Shown piece after piece: positions 6,487 to 16,821 of a stretch of DNA of 64,000 nucleotides. Where the stretch lies: positions 1 through 64,000 of the forward strand of contig NZ_ARQK01000045.1 in assembly GCF_000385215.1 (NCBI RefSeq), read 5' to 3'. Source of the DNA: Thioalkalivibrio thiocyanoxidans ARh2. Lineage in GTDB: Bacteria > Pseudomonadota > Gammaproteobacteria > Ectothiorhodospirales > Ectothiorhodospiraceae. The notes beneath the pieces are model-generated. The model did no database searches. It had not been told where the DNA came from and saw nothing but the letters and a program-made list of their open reading frames with translations. Position 1 is the stretch's first letter; every line of letters begins with the position of its first letter. The position numbers were made by a program, and so were the translations under genes.

Positions 6487-6577
6487 GGAGAGTTGGCCGA
6501 GTGGTCGAAGGCGCTCCCCTGCTAAGGGAGTATGGGTCAAAAGCCCATCGAGGGTTCGAATCCCTCACTCTCCGCCA
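6487..6577 (+). tRNA. tRNA-Ser(GCU)
   Basis: The 91-base class II tRNA has acceptor GGAGAGT/ACTCTCC, anticodon loop CTGCTAA (anticodon GCU), a long variable arm, GGTTCGAATCC T-arm and encoded CCA. Its last 14 bases are the attachment core used by the integrated element that follows and are duplicated at 16455-16468. Confidence 0.97.
6564..6577 (+). other. attL (tRNA-Ser 3' end core)
   Basis: The sequence CTCACTCTCCGCCA forms the tRNA-Ser acceptor end with CCA. It recurs exactly at 16455-16468 and 16637-16650. Integration regenerated the tRNA, so the gene stays functional. Confidence 0.85.
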
Positions 6578-6688
6578 CCTATTCAGTAAAATCAGTGGGT
6601 TATGGGCGTCCTGTCGGGGCGTCCCCCGCTGTATCCCCTAACGATCGGACTGGCTGCTTTCCCTGTTCCCAACCACAGGAGAAAGACC

Positions 6689-6904
6689 ATGACCGAAGAA
6701 ACACCCATGACCGATAACGACCTGGTGGACCAGGCCGACGATATGATGCGCCACCTTCAATCCATGCAGTCGATCTGTACCAAGATCATCTGCGAGTGCG
6801 AGCAGGACAACGCCGATATTCCGCTCTTTGACCTGTTCGGCGAGGCGTTCAAGGATGCCCGCGCGCTCGTTGAGCAGCTCCAGTCCGCCGTGGGCCGCAA
6901 GTAG
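6689..6904 (+). CDS. small protein of unknown function, satellite left end
   Basis: I do not recognise this 71-residue acidic protein. The ATG at 6689 follows a good AGGAGA site; upstream in-frame starts have none. It is helical in character (DLVDQADDMMRHLQ, EAFKDARALVEQLQ) and has a CKIICEC-like cysteine cluster (ICTKIICECEQD) that could bind metal. It lies just inside attL and is the only rightward gene of the element, convergent to the tape measure gene, so it is probably expressed independently of the operon, a typical place for accessory cargo. Confidence 0.7.
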   Translation: MTEETPMTDNDLVDQADDMMRHLQSMQSICTKIICECEQDNADIPLFDLFGEAFKDARALVEQLQSAVGRK

Positions 6905-6911
6905 CAGGCAC

Positions 6912-6959
6912 AAAAAAACCCCGCGGACGGAGGACTGGCAAGGTCTCGTCTGCGGGGTT
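6912..6959 (-). terminator. terminator of the leftward satellite operon
   Basis: AACCCCGC (6917-6924) pairs with GCGGGGTT (6952-6959), extended by GGACG/CGTCT. The run of seven A at 6912-6918 becomes a T-tract on the minus strand, so it ends leftward transcription 50 bases past the tape measure stop. It may also slow rightward transcription from the 71-residue gene. Confidence 0.8.
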
Positions 6960-7008
6960 CACCGGGATTGCGGAGCGCGGCTCCCGGCGGGCCGCGTTGG
7001 GGGCCTGG

Positions 7009-9642
7009 CTACGCGCCCGTTAACATCTCGAGGCCGTCTTCGTTCACCCGAACCTGAATGGCCCGCAGGATCTCCCACATGAACGCTTCGAGGTGCGGCT
7101 GCAGGCCGTCGCCCTCGATCTTGATGGCGGCATCGCCGCGTTGCATGGCGTCTGTCCGGGCCTGCAGGTTGCGGATATGCTCGTCGAGCATCTTCATCTG
7201 GCGCTGGTGCGCTTCCTCGCGGATCTGATTCTCTCGGTCGATCTGGCTCTTGATGTCCAGTCGATCCCAGGCGGACGAATCGCCCAACTGCCCGAACAGG
7301 CTGCCGAGCATTTCAGCGGTGCTGTCCATGGTGTTGTTGATGGAGTCGAAGGCCGCCTCGACCTGTGCGGTCTGCGCCTCGAGTTCGGCCACATTCATCT
7401 GTGCCTCGAACTCCATGTAACGGATGCGCTCGTTACTGGCGAGCTCCTCCAGGGCGATCTGGAGCTTGTCCGACTGCTTGGCAGCCTCCTCCGTTGAGGT
7501 CTTGGCGCGGTCCATCGACTCGCCAACCGCGGGGCCCACCTGCGTGAAGGTGCGCACCCCGTCTTCCATCGTTTCGACCCACCGCCGGTTGCTTTCCTCG
7601 GTGCCGTCGATGATTTCCTTGGTCTCGCCGATCTTTCCGGTGGTCGCGTCCCATTGCAGGCCCTGCGCCTCGAACTGCTCGGTCAGCAGCCGCTTTGACT
7701 CCCGGGCCATATCATCGGCCGCGGTCATCTCGTTAACGATGCGGTCGTAGTCGCGCCCGGTGTCCTCCAGGGACTCCTTGCTCTTGTCGAGGTCTTCCGA
7801 GGCCTTGAGGCTGGTGCGGCCCATGTTCTCGGTCGCGACCGTCAGATCCTCCATCGGGTGGATCAGGTCGTAGATCAAGCCGCCGAGGTTACCGGAGTCC
7901 GTGAAGCGGTCGATCAGGGCGTCGATGCCGTCGCCGATCATGTCGCCGACCATCCAGCCGCCAGCCCCAGCGGCACCCACTGCCCCGAGGCGCGACAGGG
8001 CGCCGGCCAGGCCGCTGGCACCCAGTGCCGTGGTCAGTTGGCGGGTGGAGTTGATCAGGCCCACACCCTGAGCCGCGACCATCACGAACAGCAGCTTTTC
8101 GAACAGCGGGAGGAGCATGTTCACCTGAGTGACAATGCCCGCCATGTTGCCGATGGTGCGGAACAGGCTGTCGTCGAGGGAGGCCGCCCCAGACCCGACG
8201 TCGACCAGCAGGTCGAATAGGAACCGGAACGACTCGATCACGCCCGCGGTGAACTGCGACAGGCCGGCGAAGGCGTCGGCAATGGTGGTCATGGCATCGG
8301 CGAGGCCCTCGGCGCTGCTCAGGTCCTGGTTCTGGAACAGGTTCTGTACACCCTCGCGCAGGGCCTCGATGCCCCGCTCGAAACCGGACAGGTCCGCCAG
8401 CTCCAGGGCCTCGCCCATGTTCTCGGCAATGGTTCGCAGCGTGGCCTCGGTGTCGGACATGATGCCCTCGACCACGCCCACCAGGCCGCCAAGCTGCCCC
8501 TGCTGGACGTTCTGCCCCACCGCGTTGAATACCGCCGCCAGCGCGCCGGTGACGCTGCCGTACTGGTCCAGCAGCGGGCCGCCGATCTCGATCGCCATGC
8601 CGCGCATGGCGTTGATCACGCGCTGGTTGTTTTGCTCGACCGTGCCAGCCATGTTCTCGAAGGCCTGGCCGGTGGCTCCGGTGTTGTCCTCCATCGCCCG
8701 CAGGGTGTCGCCGAACGCGCCCGCGCCCTCGCCGGTCAGCGTGAGGACCGCGCCCAGCGCCTGGACCGAGCCAAACAGCTGCGACATCTGCTCGGTGTTG
8801 CCGCCGGTGGCCTGCGCCACATCGTCGAGCACGCCTTCCAGCCCGCGGGACTCCAGCGCCGCCGCCCCGAACTCGATACCGAGATCGGCGGCCATGGTCC
8901 GGGCCTGCTGGGTCGGGTTGATGATGTTCGCGATGGCCTGGCGGACCTGCGTCACGGCCTGGCTGGTCGGGGTGCCCGCCGCCGTCAGCGCCGCAACGGC
9001 CGACAGCAGTTCCTCGAAGTCGACGCCGGCCGACGCGGCGAGGCCCGTCACCTGCGCCAGCGACGATCCCAGCTCCGGCAGCGTGGTCTGGCCCTGCCGC
9101 ACGGTGGTGAACAGCGCATCGCTGAACCGCTCGGCCTCGTCCATCTCCATGCCGTAGGCATTCAGGCTGGACACCAGCACCGTGAGGGTGTCGTTCAGAT
9201 CCGCCTTGCCGGCCACCGCCAGCTGCTCGGCCTGCGCGACCGCCTCGATGGCATCGGTGTAGTCCACACCCGCCGAGATCGCCGAGTAGATCGCGGTGGT
9301 GACCTGCTCGAGCGGCTGCGTGGATTCGTTGGCGTAGTCGAGAATGCCCTGGCGGAACTCGTCCAGGGCCCCGATCGGCTCGTCGATCAGCGTGGTGATC
9401 TCGCGAAAGGCGCTGTCGAAGTCGCCCGCCGCCTTGATGCTGAACGCGGTGATGGCCGCGCCCGCCGTCAGCAGCGCTGCCTCTACCTGGACCGCACGCT
9501 TGGTGAAGTCGGCAATCGGGGCCGTGGCGGACTGCAGGCTGTTGGTGAAGGACTGCGCGTTGCGGAGCGCGGCCTGCGTGGCCTCTCCGGTTCGATCGAT
9601 CCCCTGAAAGATGAGCTCTACCGTACTCGAGCGGTCAGCCAT
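7009..9642 (-). CDS. phage tail tape measure protein (TP901-type)
   Basis: The tape measure protein is the scaffold that sets tail length in siphophages and myophages and is ejected at infection. The 877-residue product has an N-terminal TP901 core (about residues 80-370: SAISAGVDYTDAIEAVAQAE, LTAAGTPTSQAV, QLFGSVQALGAVLTLTG, NQRVINAMRG), hydrophobic segments at about 510-590 and a C-terminal coiled coil rich in Glu/Gln. No stop or frameshift interrupts it. The ATG at 9642 overlaps the preceding terminase-like gene by 8 bases. No tail tube, chaperone or baseplate gene accompanies it, which is odd. Confidence 0.9.
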   Translation of the reverse strand: MADRSSTVELIFQGIDRTGEATQAALRNAQSFTNSLQSATAPIADFTKRAVQVEAALLTAGAAITAFSIKAAGDFDSAFREITTLIDEPIGALDEFRQGILDYANESTQPLEQVTTAIYSAISAGVDYTDAIEAVAQAEQLAVAGKADLNDTLTVLVSSLNAYGMEMDEAERFSDALFTTVRQGQTTLPELGSSLAQVTGLAASAGVDFEELLSAVAALTAAGTPTSQAVTQVRQAIANIINPTQQARTMAADLGIEFGAAALESRGLEGVLDDVAQATGGNTEQMSQLFGSVQALGAVLTLTGEGAGAFGDTLRAMEDNTGATGQAFENMAGTVEQNNQRVINAMRGMAIEIGGPLLDQYGSVTGALAAVFNAVGQNVQQGQLGGLVGVVEGIMSDTEATLRTIAENMGEALELADLSGFERGIEALREGVQNLFQNQDLSSAEGLADAMTTIADAFAGLSQFTAGVIESFRFLFDLLVDVGSGAASLDDSLFRTIGNMAGIVTQVNMLLPLFEKLLFVMVAAQGVGLINSTRQLTTALGASGLAGALSRLGAVGAAGAGGWMVGDMIGDGIDALIDRFTDSGNLGGLIYDLIHPMEDLTVATENMGRTSLKASEDLDKSKESLEDTGRDYDRIVNEMTAADDMARESKRLLTEQFEAQGLQWDATTGKIGETKEIIDGTEESNRRWVETMEDGVRTFTQVGPAVGESMDRAKTSTEEAAKQSDKLQIALEELASNERIRYMEFEAQMNVAELEAQTAQVEAAFDSINNTMDSTAEMLGSLFGQLGDSSAWDRLDIKSQIDRENQIREEAHQRQMKMLDEHIRNLQARTDAMQRGDAAIKIEGDGLQPHLEAFMWEILRAIQVRVNEDGLEMLTGA

Positions 9643-9997
9643 TGCATTTCTCCGGTGGGGCCAGGCGTTCAAGCTGGTCGGCCAGGCCGGCCATGGTTTC
9701 GTGAATGATCGTCTCGACCCCCTCGGCTTGCTCAGGTGTCACCAGGCCGCGGCGTTCAAGATCGTCGGGCAGACTGGCGAGGCGCTGGCGGATTCGACCA
9801 AAGGCGGTGGCGACCGCTTCCTCGACTTCTCCAGCCGGGATCAACCCACCGGCGCGCTGGTCGGCTTCCATCTGACGCAGCCGCGCAAGTGCCGCCTCTT
9901 TGTCCGCCCTGGCCTTGTTGAATCGCTCGCTGTGATCGCTCACGTTCGAGCCTTTGGGCCGCCCTGCGCCGGGTCGTTTACCGCCGTGTCCGTTCAT
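9635..9997 (-). CDS. small terminase subunit-like protein
   Basis: The 120-residue product begins with the GGKRPGAGRPKGS basic motif frequent at the N-terminus of phage small terminases, followed by a helical region and a C-terminal half (EVEEAVATAFGRIRQRLASLPDDL to LADQLERL) like Nu1/DUF1441 small terminases. These recognise pac or cos DNA and recruit the large terminase; satellites use their own version to redirect helper packaging. Here no large subunit is present. ATG at 9997 is chosen over TTG at 10012. It is coupled to the tape measure gene. Confidence 0.65.
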   Translation of the reverse strand: MNGHGGKRPGAGRPKGSNVSDHSERFNKARADKEAALARLRQMEADQRAGGLIPAGEVEEAVATAFGRIRQRLASLPDDLERRGLVTPEQAEGVETIIHETMAGLADQLERLAPPEKCNG

Positions 9998-10013
9998 ACG
10001 ATTGATTCTCAAT

Positions 10014-10046
10014 CAGGTTTTCGGGAGCGAATTTAGTCGAAACCTG
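10014..10046 (-). promoter_or_regulatory. dyad in the promoter region of terS-tape measure
   Basis: CAGGTTTTCG (10014-10023) and CGAAACCTG (10038-10046) form an inverted repeat with a 14-base spacer. On the minus strand the spacer contains TAAATT (10035-10030), a -10-like hexamer about 33 bases before the terminase-like start. This is the only real gap between the Mor-like gene and the two late-type genes, so it is the natural site for their control. Confidence 0.5.
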
Positions 10047-10089
10047 CGGTTTTCTGCGTACCCGCCTGCTGGGCCCTCACAGGGTCCCC

Positions 10090-10449
10090 CTACGCCGCAT
10101 CCCTCGGCAGCCGGCCCATCGCCTGCAGTTCTTTGCGCACGCCATGTACACGCCGCTCGCTGAGTCCCACCAGCAGGGACACCGTGCGCACCGGGATCTT
10201 GTTGCGCAGGGCAATTTCGATACGGTGCGTGGTCTGGTCCCGCAGGGGGGGGAGGCTCACGTTCCCGCCGCCGAATGCCTCGGCAAGCTTCTCGACCGCC
10301 TCGTCATCCATCACGGACCGCAGCCAGTGATGGGGGGGAGGGTTGGCCGGGACAAAGAACGTCATCCCGCCGCGGACAATCGCAAGCTGGTGGGCGGCCT
10401 GGAATCCGACCGCATCGGCGATCTGTTGGAGTACGTGCTGTGTGCTCAT
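10090..10449 (-). CDS. Mor-like transcription activator
   Basis: The 119-residue protein matches the Mor/C family of phage Mu: an N-terminal dimerisation part (VLQQIADAVGFQAAHQLAIVRGG, TFFVPANPPPHHWL, EKLAEAFGG) and a C-terminal helix-turn-helix (RNKIPVRTVSLLVGLSERRVHGVRKEL). Mor activates a phage promoter lacking a good -35. The ATG start overlaps the upstream gene by 4 bases (ATGA). It directly precedes the terminase/tape measure pair, which suggests it switches on these late-type genes. Confidence 0.75.
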   Translation of the reverse strand: MSTQHVLQQIADAVGFQAAHQLAIVRGGMTFFVPANPPPHHWLRSVMDDEAVEKLAEAFGGGNVSLPPLRDQTTHRIEIALRNKIPVRTVSLLVGLSERRVHGVRKELQAMGRLPRDAA

Positions 10450-11072
10450 GCTGCCACCCCCAGGCCCGCTGCCCGAGCTTCCCCTCGGAGCGCGTCGGCT
10501 TCTTCCTGGAGCTGCTGAATCTTCGCGTCGATCTCGGCCAGCTCGCCCTCGCGCACGTCGCCATCGGGGGCGTCTCCCAGGGAATCGGCAAACGCTTTCA
10601 CCCGGTCGAGGAGCATGTCGCCACAGGACCACGCCAGCAGTCCCGTGATGGTCTCCGGGTTGATCTTGTAGTTCTCGCCTGCGCCGCTGTCTGCCCCGAA
10701 CAGCACCGCGAACAGTTGAGCCGCATGGTTGCGGTTCGCTGATTCCCGCAACTGCATATTGGCGGCCCCCTGCAAGTGGTCGGTGCGCGGTGGGCGCAGC
10801 AGCTTGGCCGCAGTACTGCCGTTGAGCTTGCCGAGTCCGTTTTCGCGCTGCCGGCGCTCGAAGTCTTCCGCCTCAGCGCGGATCGATTTCTCCGCGACCT
10901 TGAGGATTTCGGCCTTCGTGGCGCGGCTCGAGTTGAGCTCCTGGCGCTTCTGTTGCAGGGCTGCGATCTCGTCGCGCTTGCCCGCCAATGCCTGCTCGAT
11001 CTGCTGTTGCAGTTGCGCACGGCTGCCCTGTAGATCGGCCAGGGCGGTGGAGAAGTTCTTTTTCGCTGGCAT
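10446..11072 (-). CDS. coiled-coil protein of unknown function
   Basis: I do not recognise a family. The 208 residues carry a long N-terminal coiled coil (residues about 5-80, rich in Gln, Lys and Glu), a central region (RDHLQGAANMQLRESANRN), and a C-terminal coiled coil ending in a small Ala/Gly tail. It is soluble, with no signal or membrane segment. It starts 4 bases after the previous gene and overlaps the Mor-like gene by 4 bases, so it belongs to the operon. Confidence 0.75.
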   Translation of the reverse strand: MPAKKNFSTALADLQGSRAQLQQQIEQALAGKRDEIAALQQKRQELNSSRATKAEILKVAEKSIRAEAEDFERRQRENGLGKLNGSTAAKLLRPPRTDHLQGAANMQLRESANRNHAAQLFAVLFGADSGAGENYKINPETITGLLAWSCGDMLLDRVKAFADSLGDAPDGDVREGELAEIDAKIQQLQEEADALRGEARAAGLGVAA

Positions 11073-11076
11073 GGGA

Positions 11077-11496
11077 TTACCTCGTCGCTTCGTCGATCAG
11101 GTGGAGGCACAGGTCATCGAGGCTGCAAAGCAGCTCGGTGTGGCCCTGGTCGTTTCGCCGCATCTCGAACTTCGGCGGTTCGCCCCGGGAATGCCGGGCG
11201 GCCACTTCCTGCGCGGATAGCCCCAGCACAGCCCCGACTTCCTCGAGGTTCAGCCAGGATTGCGCGGCGTCGACATCATCCGGCCGGAGGTTGTTGGGCG
11301 AGAGCTTGTTGAGAATCGAGCGCCGGACCACCTTGCGAGCTGACCTTGAAACCTTCACGCGCTCCAGCGTCTCCGCCTTGGGGCGTTCGCTCGGGCGGCC
11401 GCGATTCTTGGTCAGGTACTGGGCAGCCGGACCGGTCGGGGTCAGATCCCTCGGGTCCGGCTGCGGTTTGAACTGGCGGGTCTTGATCGGCATCAC
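11077..11496 (-). CDS. satellite protein with possible helix-turn-helix
   Basis: The 139-residue product has a basic, Pro-rich N-terminus (NRGRPSERPKAETLERVKVSRSA) and a C-terminal part (WLNLEEVGAVLGLSAQEVAARHSRGE) that reads like a MerR/excisionase-type helix-turn-helix, followed by LDDLCLHLI. DNA binding is inferred only from this. It overlaps the preceding coiled-coil gene by 4 bases (ATGA). Confidence 0.65.
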   Translation of the reverse strand: MMPIKTRQFKPQPDPRDLTPTGPAAQYLTKNRGRPSERPKAETLERVKVSRSARKVVRRSILNKLSPNNLRPDDVDAAQSWLNLEEVGAVLGLSAQEVAARHSRGEPPKFEMRRNDQGHTELLCSLDDLCLHLIDEATR

Positions 11497-12065
11497 TGGC
11501 CTCCAGAAGTTTGGGTGTAAGCCTCGAGCTCGGACAGCATCTTCTTCTCGGACTCGAGCTCGACTTGCATCTTTTGCGCCTGGAGCCGCTTGACCTGTTC
11601 ATCGCCGGTGAGCTTTTGGAATGCCGCCTGATAACTCCGATCGGCCTCCTCGGCCTTCGCTTCCAGCTTCGCCAGGTCGAATTCATGCCTGCGCAGCTTC
11701 TCGTTGTTTATCAAACACTCCGCATCCAGGAGGGCCTGCCGTCTTTTCAACTCAGCGAGGGGGTGTTCCTGCTTTTCCGCGTTCTGTTCGAGAACATCAT
11801 TGACCGCCTTGTCGATTCCTTCCCGGAGCGCCTTCACCCCCTCCTCGGACAGCTTGTGTTCGGTCGCCGTGATGGACTCCGCAAGACTGGAAAGATCGGC
11901 ACGTAAATCGTCGATCTCCGCGGCGACGCTGTTTTCAACATCAATCTTTTCCTCGGCGAGCGCGTGGATCGCTTTGTCGCCCAGGCCGCGCCGCAATCCA
12001 TCTGCCGTGATTTCATGGGTCTGGCGGATCAGGTCCACGCGGGAGAACAGAAATGGTCGTTTCAT
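11493..12065 (-). CDS. coiled-coil protein of unknown function
   Basis: The 190-residue protein is acidic and almost wholly helical (ENSVAAEIDDLRADLSSLAE, ELKRRQALLDAE, VKRLQAQKMQVELES). No catalytic motif is visible. Its ATG overlaps the stop of the 29-codon gene upstream (ATGA). It is the second coiled-coil protein of the operon; such proteins could be structural partners or scaffolds, but nothing in the sequence proves it. Confidence 0.75.
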   Translation of the reverse strand: MKRPFLFSRVDLIRQTHEITADGLRRGLGDKAIHALAEEKIDVENSVAAEIDDLRADLSSLAESITATEHKLSEEGVKALREGIDKAVNDVLEQNAEKQEHPLAELKRRQALLDAECLINNEKLRRHEFDLAKLEAKAEEADRSYQAAFQKLTGDEQVKRLQAQKMQVELESEKKMLSELEAYTQTSGGQ

Positions 12066-12151
12066 CGGGCCGCCTCCTGGTGACGGTTTCGCAGTGCGAT
12101 CGCATACGCGACGGCGAAGTCGATCTGTGCTTTCAGTTCGGGAATATTCAT
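12062..12151 (-). CDS. 29-residue microprotein
   Basis: This very short frame encodes MNIPELKAQIDFAVAYAIAL followed by nine residues rich in Arg. Its ATG overlaps the stop of the preceding gene by 4 bases (ATGA) and its TGA overlaps the ATG of the next gene in the same way, which strongly suggests it is translated. It could be an amphipathic helix (Ala/Ile/Leu face, basic end). Function unknown. Confidence 0.6.
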   Translation of the reverse strand: MNIPELKAQIDFAVAYAIALRNRHQEAAR

Positions 12152-12534
12152 GCGTTGCACCCCCGTTGCTTGAGCAGCTCCATCGCGACCCCGATCCCGC
12201 GCTTCAGATTCGAGACGCGCGGGTCGAGGATCGTCCAACGGCTGTCACCGGCGGCCTGGAGTGCTTTCAGGGAAAGGTTGAGGTTCAGCCCCTCGATCCA
12301 GGAGGCCAGGGCCTTGTCTCGGGTCGTGAGGCTGGGGTCGTGCGCGGCTTCGTTCAGCCGCTCGCTGAAGTATTTGACGATCTGGTCGTGCTGGCGGCGG
12401 TATTCGCTGAAGGATTTGATCGGTTCGATCTGCGGGGTCCTGCGCAGGTAGTACTTCTTGCCCGCTTCCTCGGAAGCGAACATCTCGGCAGTGTGCCGGT
12501 GAAGCATGCGCTCGGTCTGATTGGCGTGGTCCAT
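12148..12534 (-). CDS. satellite protein of unknown function
   Basis: The 128-residue product is not a family I recognise. It is helical and basic-amphipathic (MDHANQTERMLHRHTAEMFA, SFSEYRRQHDQIVKYFSERL). The ATG at 12534 follows AGAGGGGG; an in-frame ATG at 12558 has no site. It is the first gene of a sub-operon that begins after a 160-base gap holding a palindrome and iteron-like repeats, so it probably has its own promoter. Confidence 0.7.
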   Translation of the reverse strand: MDHANQTERMLHRHTAEMFASEEAGKKYYLRRTPQIEPIKSFSEYRRQHDQIVKYFSERLNEAAHDPSLTTRDKALASWIEGLNLNLSLKALQAAGDSRWTILDPRVSNLKRGIGVAMELLKQRGCNA

Positions 12535-12549
12535 AGAGCCCCCTCTATT

Positions 12550-12585
12550 GATAGTCATGGTCTATCAGATTGGCTGGTGTGTCAA
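12550..12585 (-). promoter_or_regulatory. palindromic operator and -35 element
   Basis: GATAG-TCATGGT-CTATC at 12550-12566 is an inverted repeat just upstream of the 128-residue gene. A consensus TTGACA lies on the minus strand at 12585-12580; a matching -10 at standard spacing is poor, so activation or a repressor-controlled promoter is possible. Confidence 0.4.
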
Positions 12586-12607
12586 GATTCAGACCATTGA
12601 TTCTGCT

Positions 12608-12730
12608 GGATTTTTGGTCCGGTTAAGGGTCCGGTTTAGGTCCGGTTAGGGTCCGCTTGTCCGGTTAAGGGAGTCCGGTCCGGTCCGGTTTCCTTTAGGA
12701 ACCGGACGGACCGGACTTCCGGACCCTCGG
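12608..12730. other. iteron-like repeats, candidate replication origin
   Basis: The motif GTCCGGTTAAGGG and close variants (GTCCGGTTTAGG, GTCCGGTTAGGG) occur four times in direct orientation between 12617 and 12671. A GTCCG cluster and a palindrome of AACCGGAC/GTCCGGTT follow across the helicase stop codon (12695). An AT-richer stretch (12560-12617) adjoins. Iterons next to a replicative helicase gene are the usual arrangement of satellite and plasmid origins; function is inferred. Confidence 0.5.
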
Positions 12731-13780
12731 ATAGGCAAACCCGTGGTCAATGAATACCAGGTCGGAATCGAGGCAGGCCCGGCGAACATCGGACCATCGT
12801 TGCTTCGGCATACCAGCGTCCCGGCATTGCTGTTGCCACTCGGATACCTCAACCCGTGCGGTGTCTGGATCGAAGCCCCCGCGCTCAAGGGTCGCCCGCC
12901 TGGACTCATACAGACGGGCCAGCTCGTCCAACGCCAGCTGCTTCCATTTGCCCTGGCGGCCTGAAGGTTTGGCGGGCGGCTCATACGTCGTGGATACCAA
13001 GGCCGCAGACGTGACCTCGCGCCCGTCGTGGTGCTCGATACCCAGGGGCACGCTGCGCAGCTCGAACGCCAGGGGCTGGGGAAAGGGTGCGTCCTTCATC
13101 TTGGAGGCCTCCACGCGAACCGTGCCGGCTTCGTCCTTGTCCGCTCTGTACTCGGCGTCCAGGGCACCCCGCAGGGCGGTAGCCCCTCGGGCACGCCCTT
13201 TGTCCGCGTGGCCGCTGTGGTGGACGAGGAGAACCGTGCAGGAGTACCGCGTGCGTATGCGATCGGCCGCCTGGACGAATACGCCCATGTCGCTGGTGCT
13301 GTTCTCGTCGCCGGGTCCAAAGTTGCGGGCCACGGTGTCGATCACGACCAGGGCGGGCGGCCCGTCAGTCGGCACCGCGTCGACCGCTGCCACGACCGCC
13401 TGCGCGGAATCGGGATCGCACAGGGCTGCGGCCGCGCTGGAGACGTAGAGCGGCGCGTCTGCGGTGCTGTGGCCCGTGTGGGTCTCCCATGCCACGAAAC
13501 GGCGCTTCAGGCCGTTGTGGCCCTCGCCAGCGACGTAGATCACCGGGCCCTGCGTGGTGGGATTGCCGTGAAAGTCCGCACCGGTGGCGATACAGCAGGC
13601 CAGGTCGACCGCGAGAAACGATTTCCCGCAGCCGGGGTCGCCGAATACCAGGGCCAGGGACTCGGCTTCCAGGTAGTCGCGCACCAGGAACCGGGGTGGC
13701 CTGAATTCGAGTTCCGACACGTGCAACAGCTTGAACCGCGGCTCCGTCCGCTCGACAGGAATCACCACGGTTTCAGGCAT
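12695..13780 (-). CDS. RepA-like AAA ATPase/replicative helicase
   Basis: The 361-residue protein is of the AAA_25/RepA class, RecA-fold hexameric helicases such as RSF1010 RepA. Walker A is GDPGCGKSF near residue 45, Walker B ALVVIDTVARN, followed by DENSTSDM and VLLVHHSGH sensor segments; the C-terminus (residues about 260-361) has a winged-helix-like part (SEWQQQCRDAGMPKQRWSDV). ATG 13780 has a GGAGGTG site. It overlaps the gene before it by 8 bases. In satellites such proteins drive autonomous replication after helper infection. Confidence 0.85.
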   Translation of the reverse strand: MPETVVIPVERTEPRFKLLHVSELEFRPPRFLVRDYLEAESLALVFGDPGCGKSFLAVDLACCIATGADFHGNPTTQGPVIYVAGEGHNGLKRRFVAWETHTGHSTADAPLYVSSAAAALCDPDSAQAVVAAVDAVPTDGPPALVVIDTVARNFGPGDENSTSDMGVFVQAADRIRTRYSCTVLLVHHSGHADKGRARGATALRGALDAEYRADKDEAGTVRVEASKMKDAPFPQPLAFELRSVPLGIEHHDGREVTSAALVSTTYEPPAKPSGRQGKWKQLALDELARLYESRRATLERGGFDPDTARVEVSEWQQQCRDAGMPKQRWSDVRRACLDSDLVFIDHGFAYPRVRKSGPSGS

Positions 13781-14102
13781 GGCGCACCTCCGGCACGAAC
13801 AGGGTTCCGGATTCGTCCAGCACGCGCTCGACACCATCCCGCAACAGGGCGGCGATCAGCCCGCGCACCTGCGCGCCTTCGGCTGGTCCCGTGCGAACCA
13901 CAAGCACTGGATCATGGCCTCGGCACGCGCGCCAATCCAACGCGGCGGGATCTTCCTCGGGTGGGGCGACCAGGACTACGTGGCTCGGTCGCTGACGGGC
14001 CCATTTCCACGCATGGGGGCCTGTGGCGACCCAAACGGTGCGCGGCGGACGGCTCAGGGCTTCGGCGTAGCGCTTGGCATACGGAGGCGCTTTCCGGGTC
14101 AT
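13773..14102 (-). CDS. satellite protein of unknown function
   Basis: The 109-residue product contains a beta-alpha pattern (RTVWVATGPHAWKWAR, HVVLVAPPEEDPAALDWRAC, HDPVLVVRTGP) and a C-terminal helix. It resembles small Toprim- or Rossmann-like folds but lacks motifs that would settle it. It overlaps its neighbours by 4 bases upstream and 8 downstream, directly before the helicase, so a replication role is possible. Confidence 0.65.
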   Translation of the reverse strand: MTRKAPPYAKRYAEALSRPPRTVWVATGPHAWKWARQRPSHVVLVAPPEEDPAALDWRACRGHDPVLVVRTGPAEGAQVRGLIAALLRDGVERVLDESGTLFVPEVRHA

Positions 14103-14329
14103 GGGCGCGCCTCCGTTGCCAGTGCAGCCTTTAGGGCTTGCAGGAATCGCAGGATGGCCCGCTTGCGCTCAGGCCCCTTGGGATGGAAGCCGATGATGTG
14201 GGCGCGGACCCAGGCGGTGCGAAAAGCGTCTTCGGTGCTATACTCGAAATCGAGCACTTGACCGTGTTGCTCGCCCCCCGCGCCCCGAGCCGTCCCACCG
14301 GCCGGGGCGCTTCCTTTTGCGGCATTCAT
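14099..14329 (-). CDS. small satellite protein of unknown function
   Basis: The 76 residues start with a Gly/Ala-rich stretch and continue into a helical, basic part (TEDAFRTAWVRAHIIGFHPKGPERKRAIL). No family recognised. The ATG overlaps the alpA stop by 4 bases and its stop overlaps the next gene by 4, consistent with operon translation. Confidence 0.6.
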   Translation of the reverse strand: MNAAKGSAPAGGTARGAGGEQHGQVLDFEYSTEDAFRTAWVRAHIIGFHPKGPERKRAILRFLQALKAALATEARP

Positions 14330-14526
14330 TCCGTACCCCCTGCGCGGCGCGCTTCCCAGGCCTGCAGGTCTTCGAGTCGCCAGCGCGTACAGCGCGGCCC
14401 CAGCCGGACCGGCTCGGGGAAGTCGCTGGACTTCAGCCAGTACCAGGGAGTTTTCGGGTGGACGCCATACCTGCGGGCAATGTCGCGCTCGGACAGGTAG
14501 ACGGGATCTTGTACGTTGTCGGGCAT
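14326..14526 (-). CDS. AlpA-family regulator/excisionase
   Basis: The 66-residue protein is a typical AlpA: LSERDIARRYGVHPKTPWYW helix-turn-helix, then FPEPVRLGPRCTRWRLEDLQAWEA. AlpA proteins act as excisionases or as activators of integrase and replication genes in P4-like elements and in phage-inducible islands, where they are the master switch. It follows a non-coding 79-base gap, so it likely has its own promoter. Confidence 0.9.
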   Translation of the reverse strand: MPDNVQDPVYLSERDIARRYGVHPKTPWYWLKSSDFPEPVRLGPRCTRWRLEDLQAWEARRAGGTE

Positions 14527-14605
14527 CTCTGTCTCCGTCGTCTTGGGTGGTGACGGGTACAGATTGGCGAGTGGGGGAGGGGCGCTCTATGCGGTATTAG
14601 GGCCC

Positions 14606-15121
14606 CTATTTCTGCATACGCTTCGCGATCCTGGCGGCCTTTTCTTCCGACTCCGTCAGCCAATCAATCGGCCGGGGCTCGGGGCCTTCTGGTTTGCCCG
14701 ATGCGATGATCGCGGCCGCGTCGGTCTTGTGCTTGTTGTGTGCCCGTACCCAGGTCGATGGATCGACCTCTACTTGGTTGTTGCGGTATTCATCATCGCT
14801 CAATGCTTCGGCGGCCTTGATCTGTGGCAGACCTGTCAGCCGCATTAGGAGCTCAAGGTCGATGGCGCGCTCGAGGTCCGGCGCGTCTTTCTTGCGGCCC
14901 CGCGCATGATGGCAACCGAACAGCTTGGCGGTGCTTTCGCGCTGCGTTTCGCGCATCTCGTCGAGCCCCCCGGCAATGAATTCCGCCAGCGGCGGGGGCA
15001 GGGCGCGGCCTTCCCGCAGTAGCCGGGCCGCGTGATACAGCAGCGCTTCCCAGCCCTTCCCGGTGGCCTTCACGCGCTCGACTGCCGCTTCCCAATTGTC
15101 GGTCGGTCGTGTTCCGGTCAT
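14606..15121 (-). CDS. satellite protein of unknown function, coupled to integrase
   Basis: The ATG at 15121 overlaps the integrase stop (ATGA) and gives 172 residues. The protein is helical with a Trp/Ala-rich N-terminus (NWEAAVERVKATGKGWEALLYHAARLLRE in part) and a C-terminus (LTGLPQIKAAEALSDDEYRN, PSTWVRAHNKHK) reminiscent of proteins that accompany integrases in ICEs and prophages. No defined domain. Confidence 0.7.
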   Translation of the reverse strand: MTGTRPTDNWEAAVERVKATGKGWEALLYHAARLLREGRALPPPLAEFIAGGLDEMRETQRESTAKLFGCHHARGRKKDAPDLERAIDLELLMRLTGLPQIKAAEALSDDEYRNNQVEVDPSTWVRAHNKHKTDAAAIIASGKPEGPEPRPIDWLTESEEKAARIAKRMQK

Positions 15122-16314
15122 TTGTCTGGCCTCGCTACGTAGGCGGCCCATTCGGCCATCAGCGCGCGGCGCTTCTCGAGCAGGTCGCCTCGGCGGTAGG
15201 CGCGTTCGACGGCATTGGGGATGGTGTGTGCCAGCGCCATCTCAGCCACCTCGTGAGGGTAGGCGGTGGTCTCGGAAACCCAGTCCCTGAACGTGCTGCG
15301 GAATCCGTGAACGGTCACGTCAGCACCCATGCGCTTGAGAACAGCCGACAGAGAGGCATCGCTGAGTTCGCCGCCGCGAGGGGCTGCGAACACGTAGGGG
15401 GACTCAGTGCGGGGCAGGGCGTCCAGGAGCGCCAGGGCATCATCCGGCAGTGGGACTACATGGTCGCGCTGTGCCTTCATGCGGGCCCCTGGAATGTTCC
15501 AGGTCCGGGCCTCCAGGTCGATTTCGTTCCAAGTCGCGCCGCGCACCTCACCGGATCGGCAGGCCGTCAGGATCAGGAACTCGAGCGCGCGGCCCGCGAT
15601 CCCTTCGCGCTGCCGTAGCTGCGCCATAAACTCCGGCAGGTCACGCCAGGGCATGGCCTTGTGATGCGTCACCTTCTTGAGCTTGGACGGGGCCGGCAAT
15701 ATCGCGTCCAGGTTGCCGCGCCAGCGGGCCGGGTTCTCGCCTTGCCGGAAGCCGCTCACGGTGGCGTAGTCGAGCACCTTCTCAATACGCCCACGCACTC
15801 GGGAAGCCGTCTCCGTGCGCGTGCGCCAGATCGGCTCAAGAACCTGCAGGATGTGAGCGAGCTCAATGGCCTGGACGGGGAGTTGCCCCATCACCGGAGA
15901 CGCATAGGTCTCAAGGCTCGAACGCCATTGCTTGGCGTGCTTGGGGTTTCGGAATTCCGACAGCTTGCCGGCCAGGTAGCGGTCGGTTGCATCATCGAAG
16001 GTCAGCGCGCTGGCCGTAGCGGCTGCCAGCGCGTTCCGTGCGGCCTCGCGTTCCGCCAGCGGGTCAATGCCGTCCCGGATCTTCATACGGGTATCAGCCG
16101 CGGCCTCGCGTGCCTTGGCCAGCGTTACTTCGGGATAGGGACCTATGCCTATCTCCCGGACGCGCCCGCCGATCGTCGCGCGCAGAAGCCAGTACTTGTG
16201 CCCGCTGTCGTAGACGCGGATGCGCAGGCCCGCCACGCCCCCAACGGTGTACTCTCCCGGCTGCTCAAGGCGTTTGACCGCCAGCGCCCCCATTTCCTCC
16301 GCCTTACGAGGCAT
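15118..16314 (-). CDS. P4-type tyrosine integrase
   Basis: The 398-residue recombinase inserts and excises the element at tRNA-Ser. It has the N-terminal arm-binding DUF4102 domain (LRIRVYDSGHKYWLLR), the SAM-like core-binding domain, and the catalytic domain with Arg in TACRSGEVRGATW, HGFRSTFRDW (HxxR) and the tyrosine in LAHTIPNAVERAYRR. The gene starts 140 bases inside attR and is transcribed away from it, so the rest of the element is downstream of int. Confidence 0.96.
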   Translation of the reverse strand: MPRKAEEMGALAVKRLEQPGEYTVGGVAGLRIRVYDSGHKYWLLRATIGGRVREIGIGPYPEVTLAKAREAAADTRMKIRDGIDPLAEREAARNALAAATASALTFDDATDRYLAGKLSEFRNPKHAKQWRSSLETYASPVMGQLPVQAIELAHILQVLEPIWRTRTETASRVRGRIEKVLDYATVSGFRQGENPARWRGNLDAILPAPSKLKKVTHHKAMPWRDLPEFMAQLRQREGIAGRALEFLILTACRSGEVRGATWNEIDLEARTWNIPGARMKAQRDHVVPLPDDALALLDALPRTESPYVFAAPRGGELSDASLSAVLKRMGADVTVHGFRSTFRDWVSETTAYPHEVAEMALAHTIPNAVERAYRRGDLLEKRRALMAEWAAYVARPDK

Positions 16315-16339
16315 TCCCTTTACCTATCCCCAAATAGAG

Positions 16340-16380
16340 CTTGTAACTATAGCCTACGCTGCGCTACTATCGACTACAAG
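16340..16380 (-). promoter_or_regulatory. dyad upstream of integrase
   Basis: CTTGTAACTATAG (16340-16352) and the near-complement CTATCGACTACAAG (16367-16380) form an imperfect dyad between the integrase start and attR. It could be an operator or an integrase/excisionase arm site. Confidence 0.4.
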
Positions 16381-16454
16381 GGAAAAGCAGAAAGGCCGAA
16401 CTATTAGGGGCTTACGGCGTAGATATGGGTAGTGTCCGGTCGAGCATCGGCAGA

Positions 16455-16746
16455 CTCACTCTCCGCCAGATCCAGCAAAGGGGCCCGAGTGGCCCCTTTC
16501 GCATGTCTGGCCCCCGAGGTATCGGGATTCGCACCCGAGATATGGAAAATGATGGTTCGACGGGTGACGCGCAGCGGCACCCGAACGTCGCCGCAGGTGA
16601 CGGCCCGAAGGGCGAGGCGCAAAGCGCCGAGTAATCCTCACTCTCCGCCAGATCCAGCAAAGGGGCCCGAGTGGCCCCTTTCGCATGTCTGGCCCCCCGA
16701 GGATTCGGGATTCGAACCCGAGATACAGAAAATGATGGTTCGACGG
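16455..16746. repeat. attR and a tandem duplicate of the tRNA-Ser end
   Basis: A unit of about 110 bases starts with CTCACTCTCCGCCA at 16455 and recurs at 16637-16746 with few changes. Each copy continues with an AAGGGGCC/GGCCCCTT hairpin and T-tract, probably the native tRNA-Ser terminator, and a GGGATTCGAACCC T-arm-like motif. The 73 bases between hold nothing recognised. Two tandem att ends suggest a second integration event at the same site that was later lost. Bases 16747-16821 have no gene. Confidence 0.75.
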
Positions 16747-16821
16747 GCGGTGCGCTGCAACGCCTTGGCCGGAGGCCGGCGGACCAGGGGGCGCTTGCGC
16801 GTCGGGGCCCGGGCAGCCCAG

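Follow-up and report, generated by a model that had tools for sequence, protein, structure and literature searches.

Satellites with Virion Genes of Their Own

Tape measure proteins (TMPs) encoded by phage satellites were described in 2026 for the phage-inducible chromosomal island-like elements (PLEs) of Vibrio (PMC12987554). As reported there, PLE virions contain the PLE TMP and deletion of tmp lowers transduction by 96-99.9%; for PLE11, whose virions hold the satellite TMP, transfer drops by ~99.9% when the protein is lost (PMC12987554). Here, we analyse an element of Thioalkalivibrio thiocyanoxidans ARh2 (assembly GCF_000385215.1, 2.77 Mb in 61 contigs) that lies in a 64,000-nt stretch of contig NZ_ARQK01000045.1 (positions 1-64,000, + strand), hereafter called the window. 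This integrated element of 9,891 bp (window 6564-16468) is flanked by 14-bp copies of the 3' end of tRNA-Ser(GCT), is intact and compact, and can be regarded with great confidence as a PICI-like phage satellite, where PICI stands for phage-inducible chromosomal island. By analogy with the PLEs, its TMP is, on balance, probably swapped into the tails of a helper phage, which would thereby become chimeric.

The element resembles the PLEs of Vibrio cholerae in having a TMP of the satellite's own and, as predicted for the window element, tails that otherwise come largely from the helper. A tail assembly chaperone is reported for all PLE variants and a baseplate hub for some, whereas neither was recognised in the present element; moreover, the PLE helper is the lytic phage ICP1, which has contractile tails, and the PLE11 TMP is 20% identical to that of its helper (PMC12987554). 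Set against the PLEs as they are described, the window element has the TMP as its sole structural gene beside the small terminase subunit (TerS), a TMP of siphophage-type length and ends, and a backbone of int, alpA, AAA_25 rep and a Mor-like gene at tRNA-Ser.

PICIs of Gram-negative bacteria such as EcCICFT073 and PmCI172 share with the element int, alpA, a replication module, sometimes terS, compactness and att sites of their own, and some of them carry lone capsid or decoration genes (PMC6092414). The element differs in having a TMP instead of capsid genes, and a Mor-like activator in addition; no TMP is described in the PICI passages of that paper. An integrase, a replication module and a master regulator are present in the conserved organisation expected of a PICI (the AlpA match being weak in Pfam), and no lytic gene was recognised. 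The definition as worded allows no structural genes, however, and a TMP is present, although this criterion is loosely applied, seeing that published PICIs include some with capsid or decoration genes, while the 9,891 bp fall below the typical ~12-15 kb (PMC6092414), compared with 8.4-12 kb in six of the elements considered below, 15 kb in two and 10.5 kb in another (L126). Because of its structural gene and its size, the element is called PICI-like and is not filed as a PICI.

Capsid-forming PICIs (cf-PICIs) resemble the element through putative tmp genes in the integrated satellite (Extended Data Fig. 10, PMC12987554). They form their own capsid, whereas no capsid, portal or large terminase subunit (TerL) was recognised among the 16 window ORFs scanned against Pfam and PHROGs at E <= 0.001. 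Two of the relatives described below stand between the two types, one with a protease-capsid fusion and a TMP (L126), the other with TerS, TerL and a TMP (G031). SaPIbov5 offers a further parallel, since it encodes Ccm, a single protein homologous to one of the helper virion, which enters the helper particle; Ccm is, however, a capsid protein that changes size and shape, in a Gram-positive host (PMC8569155).

Satellites with a TMP are thus already known from PLEs and, putatively, from cf-PICIs (PMC12987554), so that the view of the initial annotation, made from the sequence alone, that this was not a known type holds only for the particular make: a PICI-like element with TerS, TMP and a Mor-like activator appears to be new. 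In the open-licence PMC literature, we found no PICI-like element with a TMP as its only structural gene beside TerS, a Mor-like activator and a capsid-bearing sibling at the same site, nor any satellite of Thioalkalivibrio.

Boundaries and Occupancy of the Integration Site

The initial annotation had placed the element at 6564-16468 with an att duplication at tRNA-Ser, which proved right to the base (Table 1). The junction sequence past the tRNA-end copy, CCTATTCARTAAAATCAGTG, is nearly identical in two relatives at the same tRNA (L022 and L061), and the empty site of a sister species (G025) aligns with the two flanks of the window joined. With one mismatch allowed, the att 14-mer occurs three times in the window. 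The third copy, at 16637, was considered as a sign of a second insertion at the right end and rejected, because it belongs to a ~182-bp tandem unit that stands after tRNA-Ser in the element-free sister species as well. Such units, which include a tRNA-Ser 3' end and a terminator-like hairpin, are repeated 3' of tRNA-Ser(GCT) in several Thioalkalivibrio species (L079-L082) and offer several possible att sites.

Occupancy was assessed with a probe of csrA plus tRNA-Ser, which matched 30 of 30 genomes of the genus, partly through other tRNA-Ser genes. Scanning of 26 loci with a 21-base tRNA-end probe left 15 readable loci and 11 without a probe match. An element end follows the tRNA in three of the 15 (L078, L084 and L087, that is, the set of the window, ALJ16 and G004), and terminator-like chromosomal sequence follows directly in the remaining 12. 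All three occupants within this sample of 15 are satellites, a number too small to set against the PICI rule that prophages never use the att site (PMC6092414). To the left of the element are genes that by their sequences are alaS-, lysC- and csrA-like, and then the tRNA gene.

Gene Content

The main genes all lie on the minus strand, in the order int, 171-aa protein, AlpA-like, two small proteins, AAA_25 rep, iterons, 128-aa protein, a very small ORF, a coiled-coil-like protein of 190 aa, 138-aa protein, a second coiled-coil-like protein of 208 aa, Mor-like, TerS and TMP, and their reading frames are open. Profile matches bore out the integrase, AlpA, RepA-like protein, TerS and TMP of the initial annotation, AlpA through PHROGs with its Pfam match below the cut-off (Table 1). 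The iteron-like repeats stood as well, GTCCGG being present in 10 copies in 12575-12725 compared with no more than three in any 150 bp of the remaining element or of 300 Markov simulations; around and after the rep end, there are 10 copies in L022 and five in L061. Also upheld was the absence of capsid and large terminase: TerL, portal, capsid, tail tube and lysis families gave no match in the scans of the 16 ORFs, and matches above the threshold were at chance level (e.g., Herpes_UL6 0.083, holin 0.48).

Two details needed correction. The uniform overlaps of 4-8 bases do not hold, since nine junctions between neighbouring genes overlap by 1-13 bp (8 bp between TerS and TMP) and four are spaced by 4, 79, 92 and 160 bp. 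The placement of all genes on one strand is true of the main genes, and a small ORF lies on the opposite strand. Small opposite-strand genes occupy what looks like an accessory slot at the non-int end of four elements (window 6689-6904, L022:14464-14790, L023:8573-8899, L061:5369-5812); those of L022 and L023 are alike, and those of the window and L061 differ.

Table 1. Features of the element and its attachment site in the window.
Feature	Position	Strand	Evidence or remark
tRNA-Ser(GCT), attachment gene	6487..6577	+	ARAGORN
att copy at tRNA end, CTCACTCTCCGCCA	6564..6577	+	exact repeat
Small ORF, 71 aa	6689..6904	+	gene call; no Pfam and no significant PHROG match for longer frame 6602-6904
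Tape measure protein (TMP), 877 aa	7009..9642	-	PF10145 5.8e-34; phrog_991 2.9e-56
Terminase small subunit (TerS)	9635..9997	-	PF07278 (DUF1441) 1.1e-12; phrog_141 1.7e-14
Conserved non-coding block between mor and structural genes, GGGACCCTGTGAGGNCCNAGCAGGCGGG	10061..10088	-	alignment; 28-mer search
Mor-like late transcriptional activator, 119 aa	10090..10449	-	phrog_836 4.4e-14; Pfam Mor 0.005
Coiled-coil-like protein (cc208), 208 aa	10446..11072	-	weak Pfam matches and by eye; adjoins mor in ALJ16 A and B too
138-aa protein	11077..11493	-	homologues in L022 and L023
Coiled-coil-like protein, 190 aa	11493..12065	-	no L022 homologue found
128-aa protein	12148..12534	-	52% identity in L022
Iteron cluster (GTCCGG repeats), probable origin	12614..12725		overlaps rep 3' end
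RepA-like AAA_25 replication protein	12695..13780	-	PF13481 4.7e-42; phrog_906 5e-49; 97% identity in L022
109-aa protein before rep	13773..14102	-	91% identity in L022
76-aa protein	14099..14329	-	58% identity in L022
AlpA-like excisionase/regulator, 66 aa	14326..14526	-	phrog_66 9.1e-10; PF05930 8e-4, below Pfam cut-off
171-aa protein after int	14606..15121	-	78% identity in L022
Tyrosine integrase with arm DNA-binding domain	15118..16314	-	PF22022 1.1e-30; PF13356 4.5e-18; PF00589 4.1e-14
att copy at integrase end	16455..16468	+	exact 14-bp repeat
Tandem chromosomal unit (~182 bp spacing), outside element except att copy	16455..16758	+	present at empty sites too

Related Elements and Exchange of Modules

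Relatives were sought in 144 genomes with TMP, mor, terS and rep, part of the resulting loci being examined. For the most part, genes outside the window were called with a home-made codon model that had been trained on seven window genes and may overlook small ones, and the family scans of L029, L031, L034, L061, L126 and G031 covered part of their ORFs. Of a set of 18 loci, L074 and five others in which gene calls gave no readable satellite (L062, L066, L067, L069 and L071) are outside all counts, and L060, L064, L065, L070, L072, L075, L076 and L077 are known from an overview or from the scan of one or two proteins.

The initial annotation had proposed a search for the same gene order at tRNA-Ser, and the same backbone was recovered at tRNA-Ser(GCT) in two other genomes. 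Element A (locus L022) of genome G022, which is taken to be Thioalkalivibrio sp. ALJ16, measures 9,076 bp, and its mor is directly followed by the TMP gene, with no terS. Its proteins are identical to those of the window at 77% (int), 78% (171-aa), 69% (AlpA-like), 91% (109-aa), 97% (rep), 52% (128-aa), 56% (138-aa), 29% (coiled coil), 48% (mor) and 69% (TMP). In a third species (G004), the element at this site (L061) has an int at 69%, a rep at 46% and 8,854 bp between its att copies; a lone 351-aa capsid protein (PF25209 4e-30; phrog_4523 2e-41) is the only head gene recognised, and a 216-aa gene has a weak TerS match (phrog_57 2e-4).

ALJ16 contains a second element, B (L023), of 8,390 bp at tRNA-Val with a 49-bp repeat, which ends after mor-terS and has no TMP. 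It has an int and an AlpA-like gene, and its identities to the window are 26% for rep, 33% for the 138-aa-like protein, 31% for the coiled coil, 52% for mor and 72% for terS. A stretch of 1,046 bp spanning coiled coil and mor (L022:10643-11634; L023:9756-10747) is common to elements A and B with a DNA identity of 90%, as are 334 bp of the accessory gene region with 81%; outside these, the two elements are for the most part different. The shared blocks indicate that modules pass between satellites in one genome, and a regulatory module appears to have been exchanged between A and B.

More distant elements vary further in their virion genes. G042 (L029; tRNA-Met, 11,674 bp) has a terS at 54% and a lambda gpD-like decoration protein (PF02924 1e-25), and G041 (L031; tRNA-Gln, 11,926 bp) a terS at 46%, one capsid protein (PF25209 2e-24), a Mor-like helix-turn-helix (HTH) match just below the Pfam cut-off (2.8e-5) and, by eye, an insertion resembling an insertion sequence. 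In a putative element of G038 (L068), a head protease and a capsid protein lie between int and tRNA-Leu. TMPs recur in a Halothiobacillus metagenome-assembled genome (L034; tRNA-Ser, 15-bp repeat, 15,303 bp; int 48%, primase-like gene, AlpA-like match, TMP 51%) and in an IMG/VR contig (L126, 114-10613; tRNA-Ser(TGA), 14-bp repeat, 10,486 bp; int 50%, AlpA-like 52%), in which a protease-capsid fusion and the TMP are the only virion genes recognised in the ORFs scanned. Finally, G031 (G031:C1, L181:11704 to L182:7050; tRNA-Asn, 30-bp repeat, 15,218 bp) carries int, an AlpA-like gene (by eye), primase-like genes, Nu1-type TerS, TerL, a Mor-like HTH, a 194-aa protein and a 719-aa TMP, with no capsid or portal recognised in the scanned part. 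The TMP-bearing elements bounded by tRNA-end repeats are therefore five (window, L022, L034, L126 and G031). A search by way of the integrase led to 21 viral loci, and the stretch examined contained no TMP, terS or mor in any of them.

Two side observations concern sequences with TMP similarity. In a satellite-like element with rep and int, a protein of 828 aa (L063:3930-6416, G012:C1) combines a lytic transglycosylase domain with a weak resemblance to tape measures. Beside a tRNA-Asn, the C-terminal part of a TMP stands alone (L024:11029-11217, G044:C1; 52% identity across 63 aa) and is likely the relic of a decayed TMP-bearing element.

A prophage that lost its head and tail genes between terS and tmp would also leave genes of phage ancestry, the fragment beside tRNA-Asn suggests that decay happens, and G001 and G135 contain full, though distant, prophages with mor-like genes. 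The arrangement without head and tail genes nevertheless recurs in relatives whose TMP is 69% identical, and intact frames, selection, an own replication module, matching att ends and the presence of at least three TMP lineages in such elements all speak against a deletion remnant, which we consider scarcely probable. The initial annotation had likewise argued against random decay of a prophage, and would have taken the element for a deletion product had close relatives with the same int, alpA and Mor genes shown a full head and tail module between terS and the TMP gene. What lies there is the TMP directly after mor in L022, a lone capsid gene in L061 and the element end after mor-terS in L023, and at the loci examined from the 144 genomes, the same int-alpA-rep-mor was in no close relative accompanied by a full morphogenesis module. 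Its overall interpretation as a phage satellite-like element is thus upheld by boundaries, gene content and relatives.

The Tape Measure Protein: Lineages, Length and Selection

In a tree of 24 TMPs, those of the window, L022 and L034 form one clade (97/97), and that of L126 joins a phage TMP, L129 (100/100), among phage TMPs, the starred branches forcing at least two changes of state. L108 and L034 have long branches in these trees, and window, L022, L034 and L108 an odd letter composition; a second tree, built from the N-terminal parts of 27 sequences, again unites window and L022 (100/99), without support for the position of L034. The G031 TMP belongs to another family (PF06791 1e-7, phrog_27166 1e-39). 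Satellite TMPs therefore fall into at least three lineages, the third distinguished by family and not by the tree.

Outside satellites, TMPs of the window family sit in ordinary phage surroundings. In viral contigs, 25 of the 27 TMP loci, which include near-duplicates, have tail-tube or other tail-neighbour genes adjoining TMP, the exceptions being L126 and L133. A profile search of 369 genomes of the class matched seven, including ARh2 (G000) and ALJ16; of the other five, G263 was examined and has phage-like tail genes beside the TMP.

The four satellite TMPs of this family measure 877, 875, 889 and 919 aa, compared with 872-923 aa in related phages and 911 aa in PS3 (lengths from matched ranges or called frames, after exclusion of six loci whose frame is partial or contains a stop). 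A shortened tape measure was accordingly rejected for this TMP family. This bears on the idea that the satellite TMP makes different, shorter tails suited to small satellite particles. TMPs do set tail length, PLE11 tails are ~10 nm shorter (PMC12987554), and the G031 TMP, of the other family, has 719 aa; yet in the window family satellite TMPs are as long as those of related phages, which are relatives and not the true helper. We give such redirection a slim chance.

The well-kept parts of the TMP include its N-terminal third and its last 27 residues, the latter being 85% identical to L022 and L034 and 74-81% identical to phages L032 and L109. The C-terminal end of a TMP docks on tail-tip proteins, and we read that of the window as the predicted docking part for those of the helper. 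The dip in conservation at residues ~500-700 was rejected as a satellite feature, for it is seen in phage pairs too. In L034, the homologue of a PS3 gene located just upstream of TMP (36.5% over 104 aa, 5e-10) may encode a TMP partner.

TMP and TerS are under purifying selection. Estimated according to Nei-Gojobori, which is rough where dS is near 1, dN/dS between the window and ALJ16 A is 0.04 for rep, 0.20 for int, 0.26 for TMP and 0.31 for AlpA, and that of TerS between the window and L023 is 0.26; the host genes lysC and csrA give 0.07 and 0.13. The TMP is less strictly constrained than in phage pairs, as discussed below.

The Mor-Like Activator and the Late Region

Mor is the weakest gene label of the element. 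The activator proposed in the initial annotation retains its PHROG match, while the Pfam Mor match is below the cut-off and the fold reveals an HTH only: the AlphaFold model, built from two sequences, has a C-terminal HTH without a whole-fold match, and neither structure-comparison program listed the Mor family itself, the HTH alone being matched. PDB sequence searches with Mor and TerS profiles returned nothing useful. Delta of satellite P4 is an activator of late genes, of which the Mor-like protein would be an analogue; the gene content of P4 differs, and P4 is not known to encode a tail protein.

Allowing up to three mismatches, the block GGGACCCTGTGAGGNCCNAGCAGGCGGG occurs at three places in the 144 genomes, all directly after mor, in the window, ALJ16 A and ALJ16 B. 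This stretch is near-unchanged though the next gene differs (terS, TMP and terS, respectively). Located in the 92-bp gap after mor, it is a candidate activator-dependent late promoter or activator site, or else a cos site.

Mor-like genes, along with alpA- or int-like ones, also occur in full prophages. In that of G135, the mor-like gene (phrog_836 7e-16) is immediately followed by terS and TerL. A 38-kb prophage of G001 combines such a gene (phrog_836 4e-28) with TerL, portal and capsid, a match to a tail chaperone and a TMP of 915 aa that is 24% identical to the window TMP. Since these prophages carry them, Mor-like late activators belong to phages that such satellites could parasitise. Their mor genes are 29-31% identical to that of the window and their integrases are different; both prophages appear too distant to be the parent of the element and look like helper types. 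The G001 prophage (G001:C1:939617-977836) stands between two tRNA-Ser 3' ends and is a possible helper type in the genus.

A Putative Helper and the Fate of the Tape Measure Protein

A helper could not be singled out by a shared DNA motif, as the block after mor is present at no other place in the 144 genomes. In 31 viral-contig stretches with the exact att 14-mer, tblastn recovered no relative of mor, terS or TMP and one integrase only, and a Mor search in viral contigs found nothing. Phages with a TMP related to that of the window do occur in IMG/VR contigs.

The following sequence of events can be envisaged. Upon infection by a tailed helper phage, AlpA and Int would excise the element, which the AAA_25 protein would replicate from the iterons. 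The Mor-like activator would then turn on the satellite late genes from the 92-bp gap, and TerS would tag satellite DNA for the large terminase of the helper. Finally, the satellite TMP would take the place of the helper TMP during tail assembly, for which PLE11 provides a precedent, resulting in a particle with helper head, tube and tip and a satellite-coded ruler and injection protein.

Several observations weigh against the incorporation of the TMP into helper tails. First, EcCICFT073 was transferred just as well after deletion of its lone capsid and decoration genes (PMC6092414), so that a satellite-borne structural gene may be dispensable. Neither TMP nor TerS is essential to the backbone, the former being absent from ALJ16 B and the latter from ALJ16 A. 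Second, constraint is uneven: TMP dN/dS (0.26) exceeds that of two phage TMP pairs (0.10 and 0.12, where dS is large), mor (0.66) and cc208 (0.71) are under little constraint between the window and ALJ16 A, and the last TMP block is not especially conserved in PS3-type phage pairs (46-62%). Third, no tail chaperone family was found in the Pfam and PHROG scans, and tblastn of the TMP-neighbour genes of PS3 found nothing in the window or L022 elements; these PS3 genes have no chaperone match themselves, so a divergent chaperone could escape. Given that PLEs bring a chaperone and none was recognised here, the satellite TMP should fit that of the helper, which agrees with its phage-like length and ends. 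Finally, probing of the ARh2 genome revealed no GpA-type TerL, L109-type TerL, L032-type tail tube, PF04860 portal or second TMP, and one marginal phrog_2 match (4e-4); TerL probes miss other types, that of the G001 prophage escaping the GpA-type search. As no resident helper of the probed types is present, the helper, if any, is probably external.

The last point, along with the weak constraint on mor and cc208, could equally indicate a once-functional satellite stranded without a living helper, its TMP and TerS inherited and now unused. We hold this to be highly unlikely, considering that the main frames are open, that rep is 97% identical between species with a dN/dS of 0.04, and that TMP-related phages are present in IMG/VR contigs.

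The lack of a recognised chaperone raises another alternative, in which the TMP is a weapon that occupies the tail chaperone and tip of the helper and poisons its tail assembly. A TMP without its own chaperone would compete for that of the helper. Studies of Tab and Tai reportedly describe defence aimed at tail assembly. Tail assembly is also a known target of satellite or prophage defence through Rta (PMC12987554). Against a weapon, PLE TMPs are built into virions (PMC12987554). A poison, moreover, need not stay full-length, whereas in this family two TMP lineages have retained their length, with both ends well conserved. We regard a weapon as unlikely, if worth bearing in mind, and chimeric tails as the reading to retain.

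A Class of Satellites with an Exchangeable Slot?

More tentatively, and at somewhat less than even chances in our opinion, the elements compared here could represent a class of PICI-like satellites in which a shared backbone (int, AlpA, rep and often a Mor-like gene) accompanies an exchangeable slot for genes, one or two at a time, that determine the virion of a siphophage-type helper. The slot would hold TMP, TerS and TMP, TerS, capsid, TerS and capsid, or TerS and a decoration protein, its contents changing by local exchange and fresh capture, such that the helper head or tail would be re-specified part by part. The TMP form would amount to a single swapped tail part, with no recognised chaperone of its own.

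The work on PLEs left open the general spread and use of satellite TMPs (PMC12987554). In the present element, TMP and TerS are the only morphogenesis genes recognised, which would mean one gene and one part swapped. TMPs recur in several satellites, apparently by separate capture, and the satellites at tRNA-Ser(GCT) carry either the TMP or a lone capsid gene. ALJ16, whose genome houses one satellite with a TMP and another without, provides natural controls for the role of satellite TMPs in these soda-lake bacteria.

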